A stretch of DNA of 64,000 nucleotides, taken from NCBI RefSeq assembly GCF_002234675.1, contig NC_019872.2:9936950-10000949 (forward strand), read 5' to 3'. The position numbers and the translations under genes were made by a program. Below, in pieces: positions 3,701 to 57,600 of the stretch (position 1 is the first letter of the stretch; every line of letters begins with the position of its first letter). The notes beneath the pieces were generated by a model, which saw only the letters and a program-made list of their open reading frames with translations, did not search any database and had not been told where the DNA came from. This DNA comes from Oryzias latipes. Taxonomy: Eukaryota > Chordata > Actinopteri > Beloniformes > Adrianichthyidae.

Positions 3701-6700
3701 AAGCATGAAATGAAAATAACTTGCTGTAGAACTTTAGACTTGTTTTTAAGTGAAGGTCTGCAAATTTCCTAAAACAGTTCCTAATCTCCCGGATGTAAAG
3801 CACACTCTGAGTTTGTTTCTTGTTGAACGGATGTGTGAAATGTTTTTGTCTGTCCAGCCTCTACACAAAAGCCTGGATCCAGCTAACCTGGAGCAGCTCA
3901 TCACTCCTTTAACAACCCTCGGCCATCTGGCCCAGCTGGCCCCAGAACAGTTTGCTGCGCCGCTCAAATCTCTAGTTGCCAACTTCATAGTGAAGGATCT
4001 GCTCATGAACGACAGGGTAGGAATGTGCACATCGTGTTCACGGTGGTCATGTTTGGAGCCAGGGCTCCTGTTCCTGAGCAGCAGCCACTCAGTTGTGTTG
4101 TTTCCTCCAAGAGGCGTGTGTCACTGCCAAAATATTGAATCACAATTTGCATCATTACATAACACAATTACAAGAAATAAAAAAAATTATTCTAAATTTG
4201 TTCTACAAAAGTAATTTTTTTGTTGACAAAAAACATTTCAAATGCGATTTCAAATGAAATAAAACATTATAATGAAAGTATACAATTTTTCTAAATATGA
4301 ACAAAAATCAGCTTTTTGTCTTTAAAAAAACAGAATAAATTGTTTTAATAAATAATCTAAAAGATTTCATGAATCAATATTGCATTAAGTAAAGACTCAC
4401 TTGATTTAATTCATTAATAATTTTTTAAACACAGCCCCAGTTTCTTTTTTACTGTAAACCAGAACTGCCTTTACGCCTAAAAAACCTTTTTATTACATCT
4501 TGTCTGACTCAAACCGACATCATTTTTGTGCTTCCTGTAGATTCCTGGCAAGAAAACAACCAAACTGTGGGTTCCAGATGATGAAGTGTCTCCAGAAACG
4601 CAGGCTAAGGTCAGTCCTTCATCTCCTCATACTATTCTTAAAAACACATTCAGGTCAGACTATTGTACCGATTACAATAGGAGCTCAGGTTTGTGTAACG
4701 TCCTTTATTTTCATTGCTATCAAGCTTTGTAAATAAAATTGTGTGTCCTTTTTTGTCATCTTCCACCCAGATCCAGGGCATCAAACTGATGGTGAGGTGG
4801 CTGCTGGGAGTCAAGAACAACCAGAGCAAATCGGGGAACTCCACCCTGAGGATGCTGACTGCTATTTTACACAGCGATGGAGACCTGACTGAGCAGGGCA
4901 GGATGGGGTGAGAGAGGGACTGTTTTTCCACAGAAACAAACGGAATAACCTTTTGGGAGAACTCTCTGAATTGAAGCTTTGGTTTTTGTTAGGTATTATT
5001 AGTAAACGAACTGACGAACTTTCTCCTACAGTAAGCCGGACATGTCGAGGCTGCGGCTGGCAGCAGCGTGCGCCCTGCTGAAGCTGGCACAGGAGCCCTG
5101 CTATCATGAAATCATCACACTGGAGCAATATCAGCTTTGTGCTCTTGTCATCAATGTAAGAACTTTGATTTGTGGTTATTTATGTTTTGTTTTAGGTAAT
5201 GCACAAAGTGTCTCTTGTAATCTTTCTGTTGGTAGGCAATCTTCCTACAGATTTCCTCTTTTCACACTTTCTTTGTTTTTAATTGATCTTCCCAGGATGA
5301 GTGCTACCAGGTCCGACAGTGTTTTGCCCAGAAGCTTCACCGTGGTCTGTGTCGCCTCCGCCTGCCGCTGGAGTACATGGCCGTGTTCGCTTTGTGTGCC
5401 AAGGACCCCGTTAAGGAGAGAAGGGCTCACGCCCGCCAGTGCCTGGTGAAAAACGTCAACATACGGCGAGAGTACCTCAAGCAGCACGCCGCCATCAGCG
5501 GTGAGGAACTGCAGGAAACCCGGCGAAGCTTTCCCCGGAACAACACTGGACCTTTAAGAGTGAAATTTGTTTTCCTTTCTTTGTGTTTACCAACAGACAA
5601 GCTGCTGTCTCTGCTGCCGGAGTACGTGGTGCCGTACACCGTACACCTACTGGCACACGATCCAGACTACGTGAAAGTTCAGGACATCGAGCAGCTGAAG
5701 GAAATCAAAGAGTATGTTTCTATGGGTGGATTTTAGAAACAGAAATAAGTTTGATCATGTCACACGGCAATCAGTGCTGGATTCATCATATTATTGCCAT
5801 TAATTACCATGCAATTAACTGCCAGAACTCCACTGATTCATAAATATGTTACTGAGACTGTTATAGACTGAATCACGTGTCAAACTAAAGGCCCGCGGGC
5901 CAAATGTGGCGAGAGACATAAACGTTTTTAATTTCTTAGAAGAAAAAAATAAAAATTGGTGTGTATTTATTCATATCTTCGGGGAATCAGACTTGAAATA
6001 TCGGATTGGTCTACTATACGTTAGGACTTAAGGACTTATGATAGAGTAACAAGCAAACATGTGTTTTCTATGCAACTGCAATTGTCACTTTAAAAAGTTA
6101 TAGTAAATAAATAATGAGTTATTTAACATTCAGGAGTAGTTACATTTATTTTCAATAACATTTAGTTACATGAATAATTTATTGCTGGCCCTTTGAGGAC
6201 AGCCACTATGCTGATGTGGCCCTCAGTGAAAATGGGTTTGACACCCCTGGACTAAATGTAATCTATAAAAAGAGCTGAATGTTTCTTAAGAATTTGTGGA
6301 AGTCCTAGGCAAATATTACAACTTTAAAATAAATGTCATCGTATTAATTTTTATAATTTTCCTGTTTGGACATTCTATGTGAAATACTGAAATTGGCGGC
6401 AGACACGAGTTGACCCTTTAAACGCCAGAACTGTTGCCGGTGACACCTAAATATCACACGCTCTTTGACGAGCTGTAACTCTTCAAGCGTTTAGGCGATC
6501 AACGTAAATCAGCTTATTCTGATGAAGAGAAGAGCAGCTTTTCATATCGACTTTGCATCGATATGCAGAGCTACTTCTCTCCACAACAGTCAGCTGATGT
6601 GTTCATTGTTTAAGCGCTTCGCTTCTGTAATACGTTGAATATCAGCGCATTCAACACTTCATACCATTTCTCTGCTTGGGTGAAGACTAGAAAATCCGGT

Positions 6701-14481: not shown

Positions 14482-17400
14482 ATGCTCGCATTTTTTATAT
14501 TCCTCGCCGTCACTCCCGCAACCGGCAAGCCCGGAGATGGTCTGAGAACGTGGGGGCGATTCAACAGACTCCCTTATCCAGGTGACAAGGCTTTCCTCTA
14601 CGACACCTTCCCCAAAGGCTTCATTTGGGCGGTGGGCACGGCGGCGTACCCGGTGGAGGGCGCGTTTGCCAAGGACGGCAAGGGGCTCTCCATCTGGGAC
14701 ACTTTTACGCGCGGAGGAACCCGCAAAACGTGCGGGGACGTGGGCAGCGACAGCTATCACAACGTCGACGCCGACATCCGAGCCATCCAGCAGCTGGGGG
14801 TCAGCCACTACCGGTTCTCCCTGTCCTGGCCCAGGATGTTCCCAAACGGGACGCGCGGGAGCTACAACGAACTCGGAACCAACTACTACCGGACGCTCAT
14901 CAAGAGGCTGAAGAAGATCAACGTGCAGCCGGTGGTCACGCTCTACCACTGGGACTTGCCCGAGCACCTCCAGCAGACGCTGGGCGGCTGGGCCAATCCG
15001 CAGCTGGTGGACATTTTTAAGGATTACGCAGATTTTTGCTTCCAGACGTTTGGGGACGACGTGAAGTTCTGGGTCACCATCGATAACCCGTTTGTTGTGG
15101 CGCAGCACGGGTACGGCACCGGGGTGGTCGCTCCCGGGATCAAAAACGACCCTGACCTCCGCTTTCGGGTCGGACACAACCTGCTGAAGGTTTGTGGTAA
15201 AGCCGAACCAGAACAAAAAGTTTCCGCCAATCCCACCTCAGAATACTCAATGTAAAATTACAGTCGAAATGATTAGTTTAGATATGTTTTATTTGGTGAA
15301 AAATCAAAGTTATAACAACCAGGAATGTGCTCAGTTAGAAAACAAAAGATCAGAATTAGAAAAAAAGGAAGTAGACTTTCAGATTAAAACTCTCATTTTT
15401 AAGGATTATCAGTATATCTTTGAATTGAAAGGAAAAATTAAGAATTTGTTTTGACGTTACACATGTATGACATTGTTCTCAGATTGGCTTAGAAATTAAT
15501 ATGAAACTTTTAATTTCAAAATTTTCCAACTTTGGTCATATTCCAAGCCTTTAGATTTTTCAACTGTTATCTAATTATTCTGATATGATCCTGGGAAATC
15601 TGATTTGGTTCTTAAATATAAATGTCAGAATTGTTAAGATAAAGTTTCAATTTGCATCTTTTTAAAAAAAAAATCTTTTATTGTTTTGTTTGTCCAAATT
15701 CTGACTTTTTCTCCCTATGAGAGGTGAAAATGATCAAGGTAATGAAATCAATGGAAATGTGGTGGAAATTCCTACATTTGAAAGAAGATTCAGCTTTTCG
15801 TTTAAACTTCTTTTTTATCTTTTAGTTCCATCTCCTTTATTTTTCAGGCTCATGCGGCTGCATGGCATATCTACGACCGCCACTATCGCCCCCGGCAACA
15901 GGGGAAGGTCTCCATGGCTCTTGCCTCCCACTGGATCAAACCCAGCCGGACGCGTTTGGAAAGTCTGCAAGAGTGCCAGTGTTCTTTAGACCACGTCCTG
16001 GGGTGGTTCGCCCGGCCGCTCTTCACGGATGGAGACTACCCCACCTGCATGAAGGCCCGCTTGGGCTCACGACTGCCCTCCTTCACCCAGGAGGAGAAGG
16101 AGTGGGTGAAAGGCACGGCTGACTTCTTTGCTCTGTCCCACGGAGCCACACTGAGCTTCCAGCTCATCAACGACAGCGTGAAGTTTGACCAGCATGAAGA
16201 CTTGGACCTAAGGATGCTGCTTTACTGGATCTACGCAGAATATGACAAACCCCCCATCTTTGTCGTCCAAAGTGGTTGGTAGGTTGATTTTTTTTTCTTA
16301 CTTTTTCAGATTTATGTATTTTCTGCTTTCCTTCTGATGTTTTTCCCCCTCTCTGGTTGACACAGGTACGTTCTGGGCAACACCAAGACAAAAGACCCCA
16401 AACAAATGTTTTACCTCAAGAGTTTCATCGCAGAAACCCTCAAATGTGAGTGTTTTTAACATCTATATTGTTGAAATAAACACAAACCAACTGCTAAAAT
16501 GTGATTTGCTTTTCTTTTTTTCCCCAATGCAGCAATCATCATAGATAGAGTGAACGTGATTGGTTACACTGCCTGGTCCCTCATTGATGGCTACGAGTGG
16601 TACAGGGAATATGGGATCCGGCGTGGACTGTACTATGTTAGCTTCAACACTCCTGATATGAAGAGGGAGCCAAAGACATCTGCAATATTTTACAAGTACA
16701 TGGACTGGCAGGGATTTTACAACAATATTTGAATTGAAAAGCCTTGAAAGTATATTAAGAATAGAGTTTCATACTGAAAAAACAGTAACAGTGCTTCTAA
16801 ATTTGCTCGTAGTGCAATGTATTCAATTATGGTATGTTTGGTTTTGTTATCCTAAATCTCCTGTTTGTTTTCCCTAACTTGTCACATCTTACAGGAATGT
16901 CATCCAAAAAAATGGTTTTCCAGAGCTTCCAGAAAACAGACCAGTGCAGGGAGTGTTCCCGTGTGATTTTGCGTGGGGGGTTTCTGCCAACTCTGTTCAG
17001 GTATGAGGACGCATTGGAAGTTGAGATGTCGGGAAATCAGGGGAAATGGCAAGAACTTCTCGCAGAAAGAAAATATGAACTTCAGTTCAGACATTCCTTT
17101 TGCTCAGGGGTTCATCACATTACACATCGCAGCACTGCATCATGCCAAAGCCATGTTACATGTTATGCCGTGGTGTTTAATGCGCTGTTTGAAGGTGCAT
17201 CCAGCATGTTGAAAGTCCAGCTGACAAACGAGGACAGTGACGGACCCTCTTTTAATCATAAACTGCATAAACTTTCTCCATCTGTCTGCTCAGCTTCACA
17301 CCGCAGGTTTTGCTGTTGTCATTGTTTTGCTCCAATTTGCCTTCTGCTTATAGATGTGTGTGTTGCAGATGTGGAGCAACAGCATGTGTACTCTGCTCTG

Positions 17401-20400
17401 TATTTTTTTTCCTCTCCTCATGTCACAGGTAGAGACCACTCCCACCCAGTTTGCAGACCCCCATGTTTACCTCTGGAACGTCTCCAACAACGGAGAGCTG
17501 ATTAAGCTGGACGGCCTAATCGCGCCGCCTTTGAACCGAGCCACACACTGCGCCGACTACGCCTCCATCAGACAGCAGGTCCGTGCTTCACTGCTCACTG
17601 TCCGCTCACTTCCAACCTCAGAAAAAGTTTAAGTTAGATTCATTTTTTTGGGAGGGGAGAACCAAATATGAAATGGAATTCTTAGGGCTGAATTTGAGAA
17701 TTTCAATTTTCATACATACTTTTAGATTTTTTTATTTTTATAATGCTTACATATTAATATTAACGTTTTTTTTAAATACTTTCTGAAGCTCAAAAGCCCC
17801 TTTATGTAATAGAATCAATGATGCACAAACAATGCACTTCAGTAGCAGAAAATTAAGCACTTTTTTATGCAGCTATTAAAAGATTTGCATATAATAATTT
17901 TCTCCAACAATTAACCTCAAAATATAGAGTGAAGTGACTAATGATAAAAGATTTGACAGCAAAAAATAATAAATCATCTCAAAAATAAATCAAACAATGC
18001 AGTAAAAAAGAGGAGAAAAATATACAGAACACTAGAATTAGCTCAAATCGCTTTTCAAGCGGAGACAATTAGCTAAAATTTAAAAGGCATAAAACATAAT
18101 TTTATTATAATTATTTTTTATTTCATTTCACGAAAAGTGGCAGGTCTAAAGAAATGGCTTTTTACTCTCAACCAACTTTATAGTAAGTTTATATTATGTC
18201 AGCTTACTTTCTCTAAATCTGCTCCAAAAAAAAGAAGAAAAAAAACAGCCAAAAAATCACAATGCAGATTATTTAGACCCTGGACGGGTCTAAGTAATTT
18301 ATTTATTTATCTATTGTTTTATTTTGCTTGCCTAATGCAATTACAGATTTTGTGGATCTTTTTTGATATTCAACAGTGTAGAGAAGCTCTTTGTATAATA
18401 AAATCACCAATCCAGTGTTTCTGAAATAAAGACATTTTAGTGCACAATAAAAAAAACAACTTTTTTTAAAAATAGTTGCAGAAAATATATATTTACAGAA
18501 AATACCTGCTCAAAATGAAACCGAAGCAATTGTCATTAAAATATGCAGATACTTAGTCACATCCTTATTCTATTTAAACCTAGTTAAAAGCTTGAAAACA
18601 CTTTAGAAAAAATGGCATTCAATTAGTTTTCATAACTGAAAGTAAAGTTCATGAAACATTTATTCGCTTTTAAGAATTCTGCATTTTTTTCTTTTCAAAT
18701 AAATCATTTTTACTTTAAATAGTGAGTTTTATGGCCTCAAATATCCTTTTATAATAAAAAAAACATTAAATATATGGATTATAGGATTTCAAACCTTACG
18801 TAATATTGAACACATACTATTTATATCGTTTGCTTTTTGTTCTGTTATTTTAGGTGGATGAAATCAAGCAGGTGGGGGTCAGCCACTTCCACTTCTCCCT
18901 CAACTGGTCTGCTGTGGTGCCCACGGGTGATGTGGCAAATCCCAACACCACCCTGCTGGGGTACTATCGCTGCTTCACCCGCCAGCTGCTGCAGGCTAAC
19001 GTCACCCCTGTGGTCACCCTGCTGCACTACACGCCCAAACACAGCAGCCTGCCCGCCCCGCTGGCCAACACCACCAACAAGTGGCTCAGCAGGTTCCTCC
19101 ATTTAATCCACATGAACAGTTTTACTGTTTTTAAATGTAGAAAGACACAATACTGTAAGTTTGTTCAGATTTTGAGTTAGGAGGTTAAGGGTTTGTGACT
19201 TAACCACTCAGATCCTCAGCTTTGCTGGTGGATGTCAAATACTAACTTTCTTTCCTGCAATAATGAATTGATTTGCTTTCCAGTGAGATCCCAGAAGCCT
19301 TTGCAAACTATGCCAGGCTCTGCTACAGAGAACTGGGAGATTATGTGAAGATGTGGATCACCCTGAATGAGCCCAACGACAAGGAGGTGTCGTACCAGGA
19401 GGGGCATCAGATGCTGCTGGCACACGCTCGGGCCTGGCACGTTTATGACCTTGAATTCAGACACTCACAGGGAGGGCAGGTCCGTTTTTTTGTGATGGGA
19501 GGATAAACTGAGTTTAATGAGAAGGATCAGAGGTCTGATGATCTTCTGCATCACTCAGGTGTCTCTGGTTCTGCACATGAACTGGGTCGAGCCGGCCTTT
19601 TCCTTCAGCCGAGAGGACGTGGAGCCAGCCAAAAGGGTTCTGCACTTCACCATCAGCTGGTTTGCAGAGCCTATTTTTGGCAGCGGAGACTACCCTTTGG
19701 AAATGAGGAGCTGGCTGCGTCAGCTGAATTCTCTCGAGTATGAATGCTTTATTCACTTTTAGGGAACAGATCGCATCGACTTGGAGGTTCTTTCCCAAAT
19801 GCAGAGTACCACAGGGGGAATAACCTGCTCTTTGCATCTTCTCTGTCTCAGCAGATTGCCAGTTTTCAATGAGAAGGACAAAAAGCTGGTGAAAGGAACT
19901 TATGACTTCTTTGCCATCAGCCACTTCAGCACAGATCTTGTGACGCATGCCAAAGAAGACTCGTACGATAAACTTTTTCCTTGTGATTCTGTTAGATCGT
20001 GCACAGGATGCAGCTACTTTTGCTTCAATTAACCAGAATACAACCAGCTTCAACAAATAGCCAGATTTCTTAAATGTCCCATTATCCAGAAATCTTGCAT
20101 GAAAGGAGCATTGATATTCTTTCAGCGTTAGCGAACTCATGGACACCTGGTTACTTTGATGCACATTAAATTGATTTCTTTGGTAACCAGAAATGGTAAT
20201 CTACAGACAACAAAGTGGGTTTAAATCCCTGGTTTCAGGAACCAAGTTTTTGGATCTACGCCTTTTTTTTGGGGGGGGGGGCACTACATTTACACAAGGC
20301 ATGTGTTGCATGTTCAAGAACGCGCTGAATGCAGGTTCTTGATTTTTTTTTTAGCATATGGTGTTTACAGTGGACTGTCGCTACCTGATACCACTAGTGC

Positions 20401-22262
20401 CTACTTACAGTTTTGGAAAAGGTTTTGTGTGAAATGTTGAAGTGGTTCAAATCTCATGAATCTTGCTCCGGGTTTTTTTTCTCATACAGCTCTATTCCAA
20501 TATATGAAAGACTTGGTGTTGTTTAACCCTTGTGCTATCCTATGGAGTCCAGATGACCCCACCCTTACATTGACATGTTCTCCCTACCATGACAAAGGTG
20601 GATAAAGGTGAAGAAATGTAATCCATGGACACCAGTGAAGATCACAAATCATTCAAGAAAAAAGCTTCAGCACACTGTCTAGTGGGTCTAGATGACCCAA
20701 CTCCCAATGTTAAAGTGCCTAGGATAGCACAATGGATAATTCCAGACCACAAACCAAAATTATTAATTTCTCCTTCATAATCAATTTAAAAACATTTGGT
20801 ACTTTTGTGAATTAAGAAAGATGCTGACCATACTACCAAATCCCAGTCTCTGATTGGTCAAAGTTCAACTGCTTTAACGCCTGTTCAGTAGCCATGTATT
20901 TTGTACTTAGACCCTAAAAACAGATAAAAGAAACTTGCATAGTGTTGCTTGAATGGCAGAGTTTTAAACGGGGAAGTCAGAAATGTGCACTTATGTGTGT
21001 TTAAGTAGACTTTTCATTGAAAGTGGTCGCTTGAACGCGCATTGCAGAGGATTGTGTAGCATAAGACTGTAATCTGAACTTGATTTTTGGGCAAAAGTAA
21101 CTTCGTTTCCACAGATATCTTCACACCGCGCAGTGTGTCTGCAAGCTTCGTCTTGCTCGTAGGCTATTGTACAAAGCTGATTTCTCTGCAGGTGTCTCTA
21201 GTCTTTCAACATCGTTAGAAAAACTAAACGTTTAGTTGATGCAGCTACCAGTCGATTTTTGATCTGTTTTTTTTTTTTTTTAAGCCCACATTAACACACT
21301 TTATGACCATCTCATGTCTGCAGCTACACTTACACGGCAAGGCTTGAGGTCCAGTACATGGTAGACACTACTTGGATCATGTCGCCAAGGCCTGTTGTGC
21401 CTTGGGGCCTGAGGAAAGCCCTGAACTGGGTAAGTGTGACATTTTAAGTTCAGACTCTGTTTAAGTCCCACTACGATCATCTGTTGATCTATTTTTTTAA
21501 AGCGTTCCCAGTGTTTTTTTTTATTTTGATTACGCCGTTTTTAGCCAAAATAAAAAAAAAATCTGTGTTGTTTTCTAGGCCATAGTTTCTGCAGAGCAAC
21601 AGGAGTTTATTAGAAATTCACCTCTGAATTGTGAGCAGGACGGGTCTTTCAGAGAAGGAATGGTTTCATCAATGAAGCTGAGCTGTGCTTAAGAAGGCGT
21701 TACCCGTCCTTTTGCAGGTGAAGGAGCACTATGGAGATGTGCCCGTTTACGTGATGGCAAACGGGGTCCAGGAGGACCCATCTCGCTTCAAGGACAGTCT
21801 CAGAGTTTATTACCTGTACAATTATATCAATGAGGCACTTAAAGGTAAAACCGTTTGAATAGTCTTACAGAAAACTCAAGATTCCAGAATCCACGCTCTA
21901 TGAAGGTTTTCTCACCTCCATCCTCAGCATACATCCTGGATGGCGTCAACCTGAAGGGTTACTTTGTCTACGCCCTAAACGACCAACGAGACCCAAAGTT
22001 CGGCTTGTACGGCCAAGTTCACGAGGAAGTCATCGTCAAAGCCTCCCTCCCCAACTACCGCAACCTGATCCGGCACAACGGCTTCCCCGTCCAGGGAGCT
22101 GCCCCTCAGCAGTGTCCCGCTGCACCTCAGGCCTGCTGGGGCTGCCACGTTCTGGTCAAGGGGCCCATGGTGGGCTTCCTGACTCTGGTGGGCTCAGGAG
22201 TGCTGATCACTCTGGGCCTCATTATTTACTACACATCCAAAAGACACAAGGAGTTATACTGA
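14482..22262 (+). CDS. kl: alpha-Klotho, type I membrane co-receptor for FGF23
   Basis: Klotho pairs with FGF receptors to bind the hormone FGF23 and control phosphate and calcium balance. Exons: 14482-15189, 15848-16278, 16366-16445, 16533-16695, 16895-17000, 17429-17578, 18854-19092, 19284-19479, 19559-19737, 19855-19962, 21324-21429, 21718-21844, 21928-22262. They total 2928 nt in frame, 975 aa. A signal peptide covers about residues 1-15. KL1 runs to about 480 and KL2 from about 497 to 920. A membrane segment lies near 945-966, with a 9-residue basic tail. Catalytic residues are degenerate: KL1 has N202 for the acid/base and Q377 (VVQSGW) for the nucleophile; KL2 keeps E655 but has A836 for the nucleophile. 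The receptor-binding-arm motif HVYLWN is kept. The start is the first ATG ahead of the signal peptide; an upstream in-frame GTG is ignored. Exon 10 has tandem acceptors CAGCAG, so it may begin at 19852 (+1 residue). Human KL has 5 exons; here there are 13. Synteny with pds5b and rfc3 supports alpha rather than beta Klotho. Confidence 0.96.
16696..16732 (+). other. kl: read-through tail after kl exon 4
   Basis: If the donor after 16695 (GTACAT) is not used, the frame continues for 12 codons ([12 protein letters not shown]) to a TGA at 16730-16732. The product would be a KL1 fragment lacking the end of that domain. The spliced path to 16895 restores human-like sequence (FYK joined to [14 protein letters not shown]), so splicing is clearly the main form. 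Confidence 0.3.
17579..18853 (+). other. kl: long AT-rich kl intron
   Basis: A 1.27-kb intron between exons 6 and 7, very AT-rich. The donor is GTCCGT, weaker than consensus, and the acceptor follows TGTTATTTTAG. I see no gene or mobile element in it. Confidence 0.8.
20523..20739. mobile_element. piggyBac-type MITE, copy 1
   Basis: About 209 bp (20527-20735) in a kl intron. The left end is TTAA followed by CCCTTGTGCTATCC; the right end is GGATAGCACAATGG followed by ATAA, a decayed TTAA. TTAA targets and CCC ends are typical of piggyBac elements. The interior is the reverse complement of copy 2 at 44.6 kb. No coding capacity. Confidence 0.8.
21540..21665 (+). repeat. dispersed repeat R1, fragment (copy D)
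   Basis: In the kl intron before exon 12. It matches the start of R1 copies at 49.9 and 59.8 kb: TTAGCCAAAAT, then GTTTTCTAGGCCATAGTTTC, CTCTGAATTGTGAGCAGGAC. Only the first 120 bp or so of the repeat is present. Confidence 0.6.
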
Positions 22263-23631: not shown

Positions 23632-26255
23632 CTAAAACATCATAGCATCCAGACCGTCCTCCATAAACTTCTTGTAGATGGCCATGAACTTGGCGGTAAA
23701 AGCCTCCAGGTGGTAGATAGCTTTGCTGCCCAGCTGGAGTCTGTGTTCATAATAAGCTGCCATGTGGGCCACCTCCGCCTTCAGCTGACCGTCACAGTTA
23801 CTCAACAACTCCTTCACCAGGCCCTGTTAGATTATTAAAGGAACGCTTGATATAAGAACAGACCTTTGGTCATTTTAACACTTGTGATGGCAGAAACGCA
23901 GGGAGCGCTCACCTTCATGATGATTTCAGGAGGGATGCAGTGAGTCAGCAGCTCGTACAGCCGGGCGCGGACTTCCAACAGCCTAGAAGAGGAACAGGTG
24001 GTGATTGAGAACTTGAAACCTCACAGTCTGATTATCTCCTTAAAAAAACAAAACGTCAAACCTCTGAGGATTCTGCTGGCTGACGATGGCGTTCGCCGTC
24101 TCCCTCAGGTAGACCTCCCAGTCTGTCTCTGGGACTTCCTGATCAGCGGAGAACGGATACCTGAAGATTAAAAGAGTCCCATTTAGCGAACATGTTTAGT
24201 TTTTGTTTCAAATATAGACAGATGGGGTGACAACTTACTGCTGCACCCTGCAGGCCTCACACATCAAAAGCGCTTTGCGCAGGTTGCGGCCGGATTTTTC
24301 ACTGATTTGTTTGGCCAGCTCAGGTGGCAAATTCAGACCCTCTTTTTTACAAACTGAAGTTAAAACACTGCAAACCTGGAAAAAGGAGGACATATTGCAG
24401 ATGCAGACAAAACAGGGGGCAACTTTTTATTTTTATCTGAACCACTTCCTCCTCACCTCCTCTGTGCTCGGCAGAGGAACTCTCACAGCCAGACAGCGAC
24501 TTCTGATTGGCCCGATGACTTTGGAGGTGGATGTGGAGCAGAGGATGAGACGACAGGTGGACATGTACTTCTCCATGGTTCGACGCAAAGCATGCTGGGC
24601 ATCTTTTGTGAGTCTGTCCACCTCTGTTAGTATCACAACTAAGGAGAAAGATTTTTTTTTAGTTAAAACAAGAAATTAGGTTACAAAAGACAACAAAAAC
24701 TATATTTTGGGACATTGCATTAGTTTTTAACCCATTTTTAACCCAAAACTTTATTAACAAAACTCAGCATTGATATATAGCATCAAAACACAGAAAAAGT
24801 TGACCAGAGGGGCAAAAAGAAGAAACAACAGTTGAAAAACAAGATAACAGAACATATTTTGATAAATCACAAAAATAAAAACAAGTTAAAAAAAAGGTTG
24901 AGCAGGGCTATATTTACATATATGAATTAAATCTTTGGCTAAATTAGGAATTAAATAAGTGGATCCAGTAAACCCCCAAACAATGTTTAGAACAGAAAGA
25001 AACATCAGGAATAATATTCTTTTTGCAGCAAAATATTGTAGTTTGTGTACAAGTCCAAACCCCTGCTTCCATCTCCAGGTTCCACTGAGACAAGGCTACG
25101 TTAGTCTGATTCACCTTTGAACTCTCGCTGCGTGCTTGACTGGATTTGCTGGGACTGAGCCACAGTTTTAATTAGCTCCTGGATCACCACACGGTCCTGA
25201 TTTCCTGCATCACTGTACCACACAGAACAGATTAGTAGCAGAAACTCAAAGACAAGGCTGGAATAAAAAGTGTTAAAAAATCCAAACAAGATACTTTTGA
25301 AATTTTTTGGTCAAAAACAGTTACCTTGGGTTGACCTCCAAGTGATAGTTGCTGGCAATGGTGTTGATCTCAATTTTCTTCTTTGATGGGGCCTGTAGTC
25401 AAAAATCAGGAGATGCAACTATATTTAATAGTCAATACATCCAAATATAAATGTCTATATTGCTGGTAATTGGAGGTTTTTGTTCTCCTTGGTTCCTCCT
25501 CTCACCACTATGGTGTGGTGCTCTATGCGGAGCTTCTCCACCCCGGCTCCGTACAGCTCCCTCAGCAGACACATGATGCGGGTTTTCTTTCCAGCTCCTG
25601 AGGGGCCGTACACCAACAAGTGGGGAAAGTCTCCACATTGAACCTGCAGCCAAATTACACCAAATAGTTTGAGATTGTGTTTTTTTAGTACCAGTTTTTC
25701 TTAGACAACACTGGGTTATGATCCCTTGGGACATATAATGTCCAGCATTTGTTGGGCTTTTTTCTTTGATTTGTTTCATTTTGTTTTCTGGTTAAAGATT
25801 TGGTTAATTTTTTTCCCTATATATATATTTTTTTATTTTACTGTACAGTGTATGTTAAAAGGCGGTTGTATTTAAAGCATAGATAAAGATGGGGTAAATG
25901 TAACTGATAACGTGTCAGTCGTCGTTACTCTGATCTCAATTACAATTCAAGTCAATGACTTAATTCATGCGTTTACCCTTTGCAACGTAACTGAAAGGTT
26001 ATTGTCAAGAATAGTAACTTTTCCAAACATGCATTTACAAAGTAACGCGGAAATAAGGAATTAAATTAATATTTTAAAAAAACGGTGATATAAACAAAAC
26101 GAGGAGAGGAGGGAAAATAGCAGCTAACCAAACCATCAATCAACAACAGATTTCTTGAAGTTTCCTACCAGGTTTTTCAGCTGAGTAGCTTGTTCTTTAT
26201 GATAATCGAGCTTCCCCAGAGAGGTCGGTCGATATTTGTCCACCCACAAACTCAT
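23632..26255 (-). CDS. rfc3: replication factor C subunit 3
   Basis: A small subunit of the RFC clamp loader, an AAA+ ATPase that loads PCNA at primer ends in the nucleus. Exons in transcript order: 26255-26169, 25643-25506, 25392-25325, 25212-25115, 24638-24457, 24375-24239, 24160-24062, 23982-23913, 23823-23632. The sum is 1071 nt, giving 356 aa, the same as human RFC3. It starts [10 protein letters not shown] and ends [10 protein letters not shown]. The Walker A motif GPSGAGKKT is at residues 42-50, the Walker B-like LTEVD at 134-138, and the SRC box (IRSRCLAV) follows in exon 5. All nine exons are open, with GT-AG junctions. Transcription is convergent with kl; the 3' ends are under 1.4 kb apart. 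Confidence 0.98.
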
Positions 26256-50395: not shown

Positions 50396-52245
50396 CTCTC
50401 CAGAGGAGATGAGCAACAGCAGGTTCTTCCTAAGAGAAGTGGAGCCAGAAAACGCACTCTCATGGGGTGATTGAGGACTTGAAGCAGAGTTGGTTCTGTG
50501 TTTTTTTTTTATCCAAAGATACTTTTATTGGGGTATCAGGTTTTTTACCTAATTTCCTTTCTTGCTATCAATTTTGCTGATGATGAAGACATTACTAAGA
50601 TTAAATGTAACAGTCTAGATGCAGAAAATAACATTTGTCTCAGAAATATTAATTTTACTTGTGAGATTTTTTTAGGTTGTTTCACATACTGTTGGTATTC
50701 TTTGATTATCTTGCTTTACTGTGGTTTTCCAACTATTGCCTCCTGCATTGAAAGCTTTCCATTCCTCATCCTCACTCCTTTCAGCTGTTTGCTTTCATCA
50801 TTTCTTTCTCTTCAAACTATTTACCTCTCATCATCACTCAGTGCAAATGCCTGTCTTGCACTGTGATGTAGTGCAGAAGTATAAATCACCAGGTCAGTCT
50901 GCAACTTAGACTTGGTGCAAGGAAAGCAGGAACGTTTCTGTTGGTGTGTGCTGTGTTTGATGGGAAATCACAGCAATAACCTCGGCCATTTTTAGAGGCA
51001 AAATATATCACAAAGGGATTATTTCAATCCTCAGCACCTGACCAGCAAAGTGGTGTTTGGTGTCCACATAACCCCAGGATTCTGCTGACTGCCCAAGATG
51101 TTGAGCGTGTTTCGACAGGACGAAATGTTGAATCAGGTTTTTGCCCGGGGATCCATGCTGACTTGCAACTCAACACCACAAACAGGACATCCGAGGGTGT
51201 CAGTCAGATGGCAGCTGAGGAAGGTCCAAGCCAATGTGGTCGCTCTGCCTGGCATTCTTGGAATAACATGAGAAGAACGTGGAACTGAGGATGAGGAGTC
51301 CCAAAACGCTTAACCTGTCACAGGGTGAATGTGGGTCACATAGACAGACAACTTAAACACTTTCACTTTAGGCTGTCAGGCTGGCTGGAGTCAGCTGTTG
51401 AGCGTTCCTATTTAGGCTTTAGACGTTTAGTCGGACGTTTACTGGAAAATGTAGATTAATGGAAAACCAAAGGTTTTTTTTTTTAAAGTTGAATTTTGGG
51501 AGATTTTTTTCACTTTAAAAATGGAAATAATACGAAATTTTCTTTTTTCTGTTTTTCCAAGATGGGAAAAAAATACAAGAACTTAAAGACCCACCTCAAT
51601 TTATATATATTTTTGGTGTTTTAACATGTTCTTGTAGCATTTTTCTGATGATGGAAGAGCTATATAAAGACACTTAATCTTATAATTGCATTTCTGAGTA
51701 TTGTCATGGTGCCTCTGTCAGACTCCTTCCCCCTCTCCTCTCCGCTTGGTTCCTGATTATCCCCAGCTGCTTCCACTCACCTCATCGACACACCTGCCTT
51801 CTTAAGGAGCTCCAGGATCTTCATTCAACGCCAGTCCGTTGCCCCTGATGGTGCATATTTGGCCTCACGTCAAGTTCATGCTTTGTTGCCTTGCCTTAAG
51901 CCAAGTAGTTAACATATGCTGTCTTACCTGTCTCCAGGAAACCTCAGCCACGAGTGGTCACCCACAGCAGCCGTAATCCGGACTCCTCTACTGGTCTGGT
52001 CCCTTCATCCTCACCACGAGCCTCTGCCGAACCAGCTGCCTCACGAGACGGACTCACGCTGCCGACTCCAGACCCGAACGAGCAGTTCCACCAGTGACGC
52101 CACGAGCCGCAGTTACATTCTCGGACCTCCAGTAACAGATACCTACCTGTCTGGCCCTCATATTAAATCTACCTTCTCGCCAAGACATCTCTGTCCTGTG
52201 TCTCATTCCGGGTTTCAGCATCTGGGTCTCAGTCGTTCTATAGTC

Positions 52246-53271
52246 ATGACAGAACGGACTGGCCATAATCCCGACCCAGCTGACCCGGAGGGACTCAGAT
52301 TAGCCGTATCCCAGCAAGGCATATTGCTTGGTCGCCAGGCCGACGCCCTATCCCAGATGGCCGCGGCCCAACAGGACCTTTTTCACCGCCTGGACGGTTT
52401 GACACAGACATTGAACAATTTAACCGGACATTTTTCCCATGTTCCAACAGATACGGCTCAAGCTACGGCTAACTCGGCTACTTCCGTTTCCGGATCACCC
52501 TCCGCTCACGAAAACATCCGGCTGCAACCGGAACCATTTACTGGTGACGTTGAAGCCTGCGGAGGATTCCTCCTCCAATGCGAGCTGATTTACCAACAAG
52601 CCCCCCGTCATTATCAGTCGGATCACAGTAAAATATCACTGATCGTCAACTCTCTACGCAATAAAGCCCTCCAGTGGGCCCAGGCTTTCCTCTCCTCCAA
52701 TCCCATAAGCCACCTCACTTATGAACGTTTCCTCAGAGAGTTCCAGTTAATTTTCGACCAACCACGCAAACAGGACGAAGCAACCCGTCGGTTACTCGCG
52801 CTCAGGCAGCGTAACCGCTCGGTGAGTGAACACGTTATAGATTTCCGTATTCTGGCGGTCGAGGCAGGCTGGCCCGACGCAGCTTTGAAGGGGATCTTTT
52901 ACCAGTCTTTAAATGAACAAATTAAGGATCATCTGTGTTCTCAACCCGAAGCCCGGTCATTTGAGGAACTGGTTTCTGCGGCACTCCGCTCTGATGTTCG
53001 CCTGCGGGAGCGTCAAAGGGAACGAGGGCCCGTTTTCCAGCGTGCCGCAACCACTACATCCTCCAACTTCTCACACGCTGTTCACGCCACCCCTCTCGAC
53101 TCCCTCAGCCCCTCTAGACCTCCAGACGAGCCTATGCAGGTTGGACACTCTCGACTGTCTGAAGAGGAACGCCGCAGACGGCGCATGGAGGGGGCCTGTT
53201 TCTATTGCGGAGCAAAGGGCCACATTGTCATCTCCTGCCCGCTTCGTTTAAACACCCGAACCCCTCGCTAG
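52246..53271 (+). CDS. gag: retrotransposon gag protein
   Basis: The structural protein of the gypsy element, 341 aa, forms the particle that packages the element's RNA. The ATG at 52246-52248 lies in the last six bases of the 5' LTR, so the first codons are LTR sequence. An N-terminal helical region is followed by a retrotrans_gag-type core ([32 protein letters not shown]). A CCHC zinc knuckle is at C318, C321, H326 and C331 ([14 protein letters not shown]). The stop TAG is at 53269-53271. The reading frame also runs open through the LTR upstream, but the family pattern starts at this ATG. Confidence 0.85.
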
Positions 53272-56200
53272 GAGACAGGCTGCGAGGGGTAACAAACATC
53301 TACCTGGCCGGTAATAATTTTTTACTAATCCCTGTCAAGTTAAGTCACGATCTCCAAGTGCATGAGTTACGGGCCCTGGTCGACTCCGGGGCCGAGCAGA
53401 GTTTAATTGACCAGCAACTTGTTAATGAACTGTCGATTCCCACAGAACCCCTGGAGAACCCCATCGAGGCTTCCGGTTTAGGCGGTCAACTCTTATCCCG
53501 CATCACCCACCGCACCAAACCCATCCTGCTCATTACTTCTGGCAACCATCGTGAGTCTATCCGTTTCCTCATCACCAAGTCCATCCATACTCCCATAGTA
53601 CTCGGGTTTTCCTGGCTAAAACTGCATAATCCTCAATTTAATTGGGCTCAAGGGACTATAATCCAGTGGAGCCCATATTGCCTCGCTAATTGTCTTCTCT
53701 CTGCTCTCCCTTCCGTTACTTCTCCTAACGCTGAGTGTCATAGCCAAGTCGATTTGTCCAACATTCCTCGTTGTTATCATGATTTAAAAGCAGTATTTTG
53801 CAAAACCAAAGCTAGTGCTCTCCCACCTCATAGACCTTATGATTGCGCCATAAACCTGATGCCTGGCGCTCCATTGCCCAAGGGCCATTTGTTTAATCTA
53901 TCTGGACCAGAAAAGACAGCCATGGAGAACTATGTACAGGAAGCCCTCGCCCTGGGGCACATTCGACCCTCCTCCTCCCCCGTGGGAGCAGGCTTTTTCT
54001 TCGTGCAGAAAAAAGACAAGTCCCTCCGACCATGCATTGATTATCGCGAACTAAATCAAATCACCGTAAAAGACAAATACTCACTGCCATTAATCACCTC
54101 TGTTTTTGATTCCGTCCAGAAGGCTCGCATATTCACAAAGTTAGATCTCCGCAATGCCTACCACTTGGTCCGAATTAAGGAAGGGGACGAGTGGAAAACT
54201 GCCTTTAACACCCCGTTAGGGCATTACGAATATTTAGTAATGCCTTTCGGCCTCACCAACGCCCCGGCAGTTTTCCAAAGGCTAGTTAACGATGTCCTTC
54301 GGGACTTCATTAATCGATTCGTCTTTGTCTATTTAGATGATATTCTTGTCTACTCCCACGATCTGGCTCAACACGAGCATCACGTTCGGCTGGTGTTGGA
54401 GAGACTATTGGAAAATCAGCTTTTCGTTAAGCATGAAAAGTGCGAATTTCATTCCCCCACTGTACAGTTTCTCGGTTACATTATCGAGGCTGGCTGCATA
54501 CGCCCTGATCCATCCAAAATAGAAGCTGTTACCAACTGGGAACCTCCAACCAGCCGTAAGAAGCTACAGCAATTCCTGGGCTTTGCTAACTTTTACAGAC
54601 GCTTCATACGCAATTACAGCAGTATTGCTTCTCCCCTTACACGCCTCACTTCCATAAAGCATCCCTTTGTCTGGTCCAACGAAGCCCAACAGGCCTTCAA
54701 CAGGTTAAAGAAACTGTTTGTCTCTGCCCCGATCCTCATCCAACCTGACCCCTCACGGCAATTTATCGTTGAGGTCGATGCCTCTGACTCTGGGGTGGGC
54801 GCTGTCCTCTCACAGAAGGAGGAGAGTTCTGGAAAACTCAAACCTTGTGCGTTTTTCTCTCGCAAGCTGTCCCCTTCTGAGCAGAATTACGACGTTGGCA
54901 ACCGGGAACTCTTAGCCATCAAACTTGCCCTGGAGGAGTGGCGTCACTGGTTGGAGGGAGCCGAGCAGCCTTTCATCGTCTGGACGGACCATAAAAACCT
55001 GGCATACCTACGCTCCGCGAAAAGACTCAACTCCAGGCAAGCTCGTTGGTGTCTTTTCTTTGACCGGTTTCACTTCACCATAACCTACAGACCAGGCTCC
55101 CGCAACACCAAACCCGATGCCCTCTCCAGGAAATACAGTCCGTCTGAGAACACTCTATCATCAATCCTCCCTTCATCCTGCATCATAGGAAGTGTCACCT
55201 GGGATATCGAGGCCAAGGTTCTTCAAGCCCTGGAAGGGGACTCTGACCATCCACCCGCCTCCAGGGGCACACTGTTTGTACCCGCTCATCTCCGCTCCGA
55301 AGTCATCACTTGGGGTCACGCGTCTCGTCTGGCGTGCCATGGGGGGGTCCACCGTACCCTCCATTTACTTCGTAAGAGGTTTTATTGGCCGTCTATGGAG
55401 AAGGATATTAGGGAGTATATCTCGGCGTGCACCACCTGCGCCCGATCCAAGACGTCCTCCTCGGCTCCGGCGGGGTTGCTCCACCCACTTCCTACGCCCA
55501 GCAGGCCCTGGTCCCACTTGGCAATGGACTTTGTCACCGGGTTACCCCCATCAGCAGGTAACACCGTCATACTCACAGTCATAGATCGATTTTCCAAGAT
55601 GGCCCACTTCATTCCGCTCCCTCAACTACCCACTGCCACCGAAACTGCTGATATCATGACCAAGCAGGTTTTCCGTCACCATGGCATCCCCCTGGACATT
55701 GTCTCTGACCGTGGCCCGCAGTTCATTTCTCAGGTCTGGAAGGCCTTCTGTACGGCCTTGGGGGCCACGGTCAGCCTCACATCTGGCTACCATCCTCAGT
55801 CCAACGGCCAAGCGGAGAGAGCGAACCAGGAACTGGAGGCAGCTCTCCGCTGCTTGGCGGCACAGAACCAGCAGGACTGGTCCCAATATATCGTGTGGAT
55901 TGAGTATGCCCATAATGCTCATCCCTCCACTGCCACTGGGCTCTCTCCCTTTGAGGCCGCCCTCGGGTACTCACCACCTCTGTTTCCGTCACAGGAACTG
56001 GACTTGGCGGTGCCTTCCGTACAACATCACATCCAGCGGTGCCAACGCATCTGGGCACAGGCTAAGGCTGCTCTCCTCCGCACCAAGGAGAGCAACTGCC
56101 GCATCGCCAACCGTCACAGGGTGGTGGGACCCGAGTACCAACCTGGCCAGAGGGTCTGGCTCTCCACACGTAATATCCCCATCCAAGCCACCTCCAAGAA

Positions 56201-56567
56201 ACTGGCTCCACGATTCATCGGACCTTACGTCATAGAGAAACTCATCAACCCCACCTGCGTCCGACTCCGTCTTCCCAAGGCTCTGAAAGTTCACCCGTCA
56301 TTTCATGTTTCCCAGATCAAGCCAGTTCTGGACAGTCCTCTGTGCCCGCCGTCCGCTTCCCCGCCACCCGCCCGGCTCATCGACGGTGCTCCGGCTTACG
56401 ACGTCAATCGGATCCTGGATGTCCGCCGTCGGGGTCGCGGATTCCAGTTCCTGGTCGACTGGGTGGGTTACGGGCCGGAGGAGCGCTCCTGGATTTCCCG
56501 CTCTCTCATTTTGGACCCCTCGCTCATTGAGGATTTCTACCGGGCCCACCCAGATCGCCGCCCTTGA
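53205..56567 (+). CDS. pol: retrotransposon pol polyprotein
   Basis: An open frame of 1120 codons, -1 relative to gag and overlapping it by 67 nt; it is probably made as a gag-pol fusion by frameshifting. Domains in order: aspartic protease ([10 protein letters not shown]); reverse transcriptase with [11 protein letters not shown]; RNase H ([25 protein letters not shown]); integrase with an HHCC zinc finger (CTTCARSK at its end) and DDE core ([28 protein letters not shown]); a GPY/F module ([10 protein letters not shown]); and a C-terminal chromodomain ([29 protein letters not shown]). Chromodomains guide integration to certain chromatin in related elements. No internal stop or frameshift. 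No ATG start of its own is expected. Confidence 0.93.
53247..53290 (+). promoter_or_regulatory. -1 ribosomal frameshift signal
   Basis: The slippery heptamer TTTAAAC lies at 53247-53253 in the correct gag register (T TTA AAC). After a 6-nt spacer, a perfect 9-bp stem follows: ACCCCTCGC at 53260-53268 pairs with GCGAGGGGT at 53282-53290. The 13-nt loop holds the gag stop codon. CAGG in the loop (53276-53279) could pair with CCTG at 53303-53306 as a second pseudoknot stem. Slippage by -1 enters the pol frame exactly. Confidence 0.85.
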
Positions 56568-57600
56568 CCGCCTGGAGGCGGTCGTTGAGGGGGGGGTACT
56601 GTCATGGTGCCTCTGTCAGACTCCTTCCCCCTCTCCTCTCCGCTTGGTTCCTGATTATCCCCAGCTGCTTCCACTCACCTCATCGACACACCTGCCTTCT
56701 TAAGGAGCTCCAGGATCTTCATTCAACGCCAGTCCGTTGCCCCTGATGGTGCATATTTGGCCTCACGTCAAGTTCATGCTTTGTTGCCTTGCCTTAAGCC
56801 AAGTAGTTAACATATGCTGTCTTACCTGTCTCCAGGAAACCTCAGCCACGAGTGGTCACCCACAGCAGCCGTAATCCGGACTCCTCTACTGGTCTGGTCC
56901 CTTCATCCTCACCACGAGCCTCTGCCGAACCAGCTGCCTCACGAGACGGACTCACGCTGCCGACTCCAGACCCGAACGAGCAGTTCCACCAGTGACGCCA
57001 CGAGCCGCAGTTACATTCTCGGACCTCCAGTAACAGATACCTACCTGTCTGGCCCTCATATTAAATCTACCTTCTCGCCAAGACATCTCTGTCCTGTGTC
57101 TCATTCCGGGTTTCAGCATCTGGGTCTCAGTCGTTCTATAGTCATGACAAGTATTTCTTTATTCAAATTGTTGTGAAACAGGAGCAGAAAAAAAAGCAGT
57201 TTGAAAAGGATTGTATTTGTGACATAAAATACACCAGGCAGGCCACAAGCTCCAGTCTGATACATCCACTTGAAAATGACGTGATGTGTGTCTTGGTTTC
57301 CCTCATCCGAGCTGGCGTCTGGCTCAAAACTGTACAGCTGGATCACTCCAATATTGCTCACCATTTTTGTTGCACCGTTAATGTTAAATTGGGGGAGGAT
57401 GAGAGGCTGTAAGCCAGTGGGAGGGCATGTTAATGGAATGCTCTGTTATGGGTGATGGGAAGAGGGGCGGTGTTGCTCTGAGCCAACAGCTCTACCTAGA
57501 AACTTTGTCCTGGAAAGCCATACAGGGTTTTTAGGCTAAAAATGGTGTAAACTTAATTAAAAGCTCACTGGTGACGCTTTGAAAATAGATCAGGAGATGA

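Follow-up and report, generated by a model that had tools for sequence, protein, structure and literature searches.

Can a fish alpha-Klotho form the zinc site that bridges the two domains, KL1 and KL2, of the human protein, and, if it cannot, was that site lost in fish or gained elsewhere? The question is raised by a stretch of 64,000 nucleotides from medaka, Oryzias latipes (NCBI RefSeq assembly GCF_002234675.1, contig NC_019872.2, positions 9,936,950 to 10,000,949 of the forward strand). This stretch, hereafter the window and numbered from its first letter, contains an intact alpha-klotho (kl) gene at 14482..22262 on the + strand, with 13 exons that encode 975 amino acids. In human alpha-Klotho (KL), the ligands of the interdomain zinc are D426, C739, D745, and D815 (PMC6517886). 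The ion has been termed a prosthetic or auxiliary group, which limits the flexibility between KL1 and KL2 and promotes the co-receptor activity of alpha-Klotho (PMC6517886, PMC10628560, PMC6770519).

An earlier note on this DNA proposed, from an alignment made by eye, that the zinc site is mostly lost in the fish protein. Global alignments of the fish and human proteins were made with four matrices and four gap settings, and all 16 combinations place K389, F705, D711, and T781 of the fish protein at the columns of D426, C739, D745, and D815, respectively. Only one of the four ligands is therefore kept, and no alignment puts Asp or Cys at any of the three changed columns. Around all four columns, no gap occurs in the alignment with human KL obtained by phmmer (PDB code: 5w21 and others). 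The residues, residue numbers, and coordinates given in the earlier note agree with the 13-exon frame, and the spacing of 70 residues between the last two ligand columns holds as well. Judged from the translated sequence, the same columns of the fish protein cannot supply the four ligands of the human interdomain zinc site. To this extent the earlier proposal stands; however, the word 'lost' implies a direction of change that is not supported, and 'absent' is the better description. Among the Asp and Cys residues at human columns 415-950, 21 of 41 are kept in fish, and the probability of keeping at most one of four is 0.28. The ligand columns thus behave as ordinary positions: the change is real, with no sign of a targeted or selected loss.

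It is very improbable that the difference is an artefact of a wrong exon path, an assembly error, or a wrong alignment. Such an error could be suspected since the fish gene was read from genomic sequence, but all of its junctions are GT-AG and it has a single open frame of 975 codons plus a stop (2928 bp). In a tblastn search of the window with human KL and a stretch of beta-Klotho, the matches fall on the kl exons, including cross-hits between KL1 and KL2, whereas neither an alternative exon nor a second copy of the kl exons was found (off-gene matches have E values of 0.57 or worse); the alignments also agree with one another. In addition, alpha-klotho of the killifish Nothobranchius furzeri, for which cloning from cDNA is described, likewise has 13 predicted exons, with a frame of 2934 bp and a product of 977 amino acids (PMC6267267).

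The direction of change was considered by comparison with three kinds of outgroup: human beta-Klotho (KLB), human GBA3, and 79 bacterial proteins of glycoside hydrolase family 1 (GH1), while KL itself is represented by one human and one fish sequence. The bacterial proteins were picked from a scan of genome contigs by two KL2 peptide patterns. The scan confirmed 104 loci, and the best 80 of these, each labelled as bacterial and with a best-segment identity of 35% or less, were the source of the set; one locus, with a longest frame of 286 amino acids, was dropped. The set is uneven, with many members from Micromonospora, and the 79 proteins are therefore not independent. Their columns were read under four MAFFT settings. 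Among viral contigs, one stretch matched a pattern and none encodes a relative.

The column of D745 is Asp in all 79 bacterial proteins, as well as in GBA3. Since it is invariant in the bacterial set, the one ligand retained in fish, D711, is probably a residue of the GH1 fold. The column of D427, which adjoins D426 and is kept in fish as D390, is likewise Asp in GBA3 and throughout the bacterial set (79 of 79). At the column of C739, the bacterial proteins have Thr (28), Gly (26), Ser (22), Asp (2), or Asn (1), but never Cys, and at the column of D815 they never have Asp under any of the four settings. Three of the settings give Asp at the column of D426 in 16 of the 79 proteins, whereas --retree 2 leaves a gap there in 77 of them; this column is therefore less certain than the other ligand columns. 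Human beta-Klotho has Glu, Asn, His, and Met at the four columns. GBA3 has Asp at the first three, and at the fourth it has Gln by pairwise alignment or Lys by eye, neither of which is Asp. Within this sample, Cys739 and Asp815 thus occur only in human KL. Given this distribution and the probable role of D745 in the fold, the least costly history is a gain on the human line, and the comparison hints that the zinc may have been added there, not lost in fish.

The reading favoured here, by a modest measure of confidence, is that fish alpha-Klotho is without the four-ligand zinc between KL1 and KL2, that its domains are joined by direct contacts, and that the site arose on the human lineage. From the sequences compared, it is likely that the domains of the fish co-receptor are held together without this zinc. 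The contacts would be provided by the N-terminal strap, the Pro-rich linker, and the alpha-7 helix of KL1 on KL2. Since the carboxylates that share a zinc in the human protein must be close to each other, a Lys at the D426 column would be well placed to pair with the Asp at the D745 column. A Lys-Asp ion pair between K389 and D711 may thus span the junction at the place taken by Asp-Zn-Asp in the human protein and by a Glu and a His in beta-Klotho. The full zinc site would then have arisen toward humans when a pre-existing Asp of the fold was joined by Cys739 and Asp815, at the least. A broader scheme can be offered only tentatively: the structural zinc might be an innovation of the human (lobe-finned/tetrapod) lineage, with the K389-D711 pair in ray-finned fish and the Glu-His pair in beta-Klotho, so that one junction would have been served by three chemistries.

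A metal might also be bound at a shifted place. In this explanation, D390 (human D427), D711 (human D745), and H782 (human S816) would hold an interdomain zinc together with water. D390 and H782 are each one residue away from a changed ligand, D711 is kept, and beta-Klotho shares with fish both the His (816 column) and the Asp (427 column). However, the columns of D390 and D711 are those that are invariant in the bacterial proteins, and these residues are thus probably kept for the fold. Moreover, a shift by one residue generally points a side chain elsewhere, and a Lys near the site, here the neighbouring K389, would repel a cation. A shifted site therefore appears improbable.

Several observations weigh against a gain of the site on the human line with a junction of direct contacts in fish. 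The three Asp residues of GBA3, with the Asp found at the 426 column in 16 and at the 739 column in two of the 79 bacterial proteins, suggest that acidic residues at three of the columns could have an early origin. A comparison of one human and one fish KL is also compatible with an ancestral vertebrate site that was lost in fish. According to this history, the full zinc site was already present in the ancestor of vertebrates, and the fish lineage dropped three ligands. It agrees with the presence of the site in human KL and of one of its four ligands in fish, with the codon of F705 (TTT), which a single base change would turn into a Cys codon, and with an early origin of part of the acidic set, as GBA3 would allow. 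On the other hand, Cys739 and Asp815 are found in none of the outgroups, T781 (ACG) and K389 (AAA) are three and two base changes from Asp, respectively, and the history requires one gain and three losses. A secondary loss in fish is thus considered unlikely, although it deserves more weight than a shifted metal site.

The conservation of the interface is also less than might be wished for a junction of direct contacts. The interdomain contact segments of Klotho have been named (PMC8465397), and their limits were chosen for the present comparison. On the KL1 side, 13 of 20 residues in the alpha-7 region and six of eight in the linker are identical to human, against a background of 254/431 for KL1 and 220/434 for KL2. 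The N-terminal strap has 11 identical residues of 23, and the KL2 segments 735-750 and 807-830 have 8/16 and 12/24. Only the linker and the alpha-7 region exceed the background, while the KL2 side does not. The confidence placed in a zinc-free junction with a later gain of the site is lowered by this unremarkable conservation and by the Asp residues of GBA3.

The difference between the two proteins is not confined to the zinc columns, which also counts against that interpretation. Six residues of human KL contact the tail of FGF23: W417, K429, Y433, D756, I822, and I836 (PMC6517886). Three of the six are kept in fish, namely W417, K429, and Y433 on the KL1 side, whereas D756, I822, and I836 on the KL2 side are replaced by T722, Y788, and T802. 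It is conceivable that the change at the zinc site went together with one on the KL2 side of the FGF23-tail groove, to form a different KL1-KL2 junction that matches a different FGF23 tail. The division between a conserved KL1 side and an altered KL2 side is what such a change would produce, but KL2 as a whole has the low identity given above, and three altered contacts are therefore unremarkable. A concerted change of this kind is accordingly regarded as a poor prospect.

The medaka protein carries two tandem GH1 domains (PF00232, 668 bits in three stretches) and matches human KL over residues 32-1008. Its five best PDB matches by phmmer are all human KL, with 1148-1164 bits, compared with about 907 bits for beta-Klotho. 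The C terminus, by reading, has a hydrophobic stretch followed by a further eleven residues, and is aligned to the human C-terminal region. In comparison with human alpha-Klotho (PDB codes: 5w21, 7ysh, 7ysu, 8toh, 8uf8), 499 of 926 aligned residues are identical over human residues 34-981. Both proteins have two GH1 domains, the N-terminal strap, the Pro-rich linker, the receptor-binding arm region (23 of 49 residues identical), and the membrane span. They differ at the zinc columns, at the three KL2-side contacts of the FGF23 tail, and in Q377, which replaces E414. By homology, the gene product is an ordinary intact fish alpha-Klotho and, by orthology, a co-receptor for FGF23; as a system it is not new in kind but a variant of a co-receptor already described. 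Knockouts of kl and fgf23 in zebrafish are reported to be indistinguishable (PMC10669475), which indicates that the kl-fgf23 axis works in teleosts.

The other relatives can be placed on both sides of this comparison. Beta-Klotho (PDB codes: 5van, 6nfj) resembles the fish protein as a tandem GH1 co-receptor without Cys739 and Asp815, and in its residues at the 816 and 427 columns (His and Asp, respectively); it differs at the ligand columns, where even the GH1 Asp at the D745 column is replaced. The GH1 glycosidases, GBA3 and the 79 bacterial proteins, belong to the same family and share with fish an Asp at both the D745 and the D427 column. GBA3 has no KL1-KL2 junction.

In each domain of the fish protein, at least one catalytic Glu is replaced. 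KL1 has DNP and QSG, in which both are changed, while KL2 keeps NEP and has Ala at the nucleophile column. Fish KL1 is thus without either catalytic Glu, with Q377 at the E414 column and Asn at the acid/base column, whereas the human protein retains E414. All 79 of the bacterial GH1 proteins have the nucleophile Glu at the E414 column.

The listed titles and abstracts from the open-licence literature include no study of the zinc residues in fish Klotho, and PMC10284700 makes no mention of Zn2+ or D426. If fish kl is unable to form the zinc site from the same residues, this suggests that an alpha-Klotho does not in general need zinc, or that zinc is a later addition. The difference between fish and human Klotho would then be a natural experiment on zinc, flexibility, and the response to FGF23. 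Zinc-related findings on human Klotho should not be assumed to hold for fish models, and the difference at the zinc columns merits a check across species.

The exons of kl and the other features of the window are listed in the table below.

Table. Features of the medaka window, with positions counted from its first letter.
Feature	Position	Strand	Content
PDS5-like frames	5015-5733	+	match to cohesin regulator PDS5, upstream of kl
kl exon 1	14482..15189	+	start codon, N-terminal strap, first part of KL1
kl exon 2	15848..16278	+	KL1; Q377 at human E414 nucleophile column (16268-16270)
kl exon 3	16366..16445	+	K389 (human D426 column, 16391-16393), D390 (human D427, 16394-16396); K392 and Y396, the human FGF23-tail contacts K429 and Y433
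kl exon 4	16533..16695	+	end of KL1
kl exon 5	16895..17000	+	Pro-rich interdomain linker (PELPENRP), start of KL2
kl exon 6	17429..17578	+	most of receptor-binding arm region (human 530-578)
kl exon 7	18854..19092	+	KL2
kl exon 8	19284..19479	+	KL2; ITLNEP acid/base motif (E655)
kl exon 9	19559..19737	+	F705 (human C739 column, 19598-19600), D711 (human D745, 19616-19618), T722 (human D756, 19649-19651)
kl exon 10	19855..19962	+	T781 (human D815 column, 19943-19945), H782 (19946-19948)
kl exon 11	21324..21429	+	KL2; Y788 (human I822, 21325-21327), T802 (human I836, 21367-21369)
kl exon 12	21718..21844	+	KL2; Ala at nucleophile column (VMANGV)
kl exon 13	21928..22262	+	end of KL2, stalk, hydrophobic membrane span (by reading), short tail, stop
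RFC subunit 3 (replication factor C)	23632-23826	-	C-terminal domain, about 1.4 kb past the stop codon of kl
Retrotransposon-like frames	51913-56564		resemble gag and pol (by eye)

The exon number of medaka kl is the same as that predicted in killifish, in which beta-klotho is predicted to have six exons (PMC6267267). Many extra introns appear to be present in teleost kl, as the 13 exons of medaka compare with five in human KL.

The neighbours of kl, PDS5 upstream and RFC3 downstream, are as in mammals, where human KL lies beside PDS5B and RFC3; no search was aimed at STARD13. Farther along the window, long frames resemble the gag and pol of a long terminal repeat retrotransposon of the Ty3/gypsy type, and the start of the first of these frames recurs at 56811.

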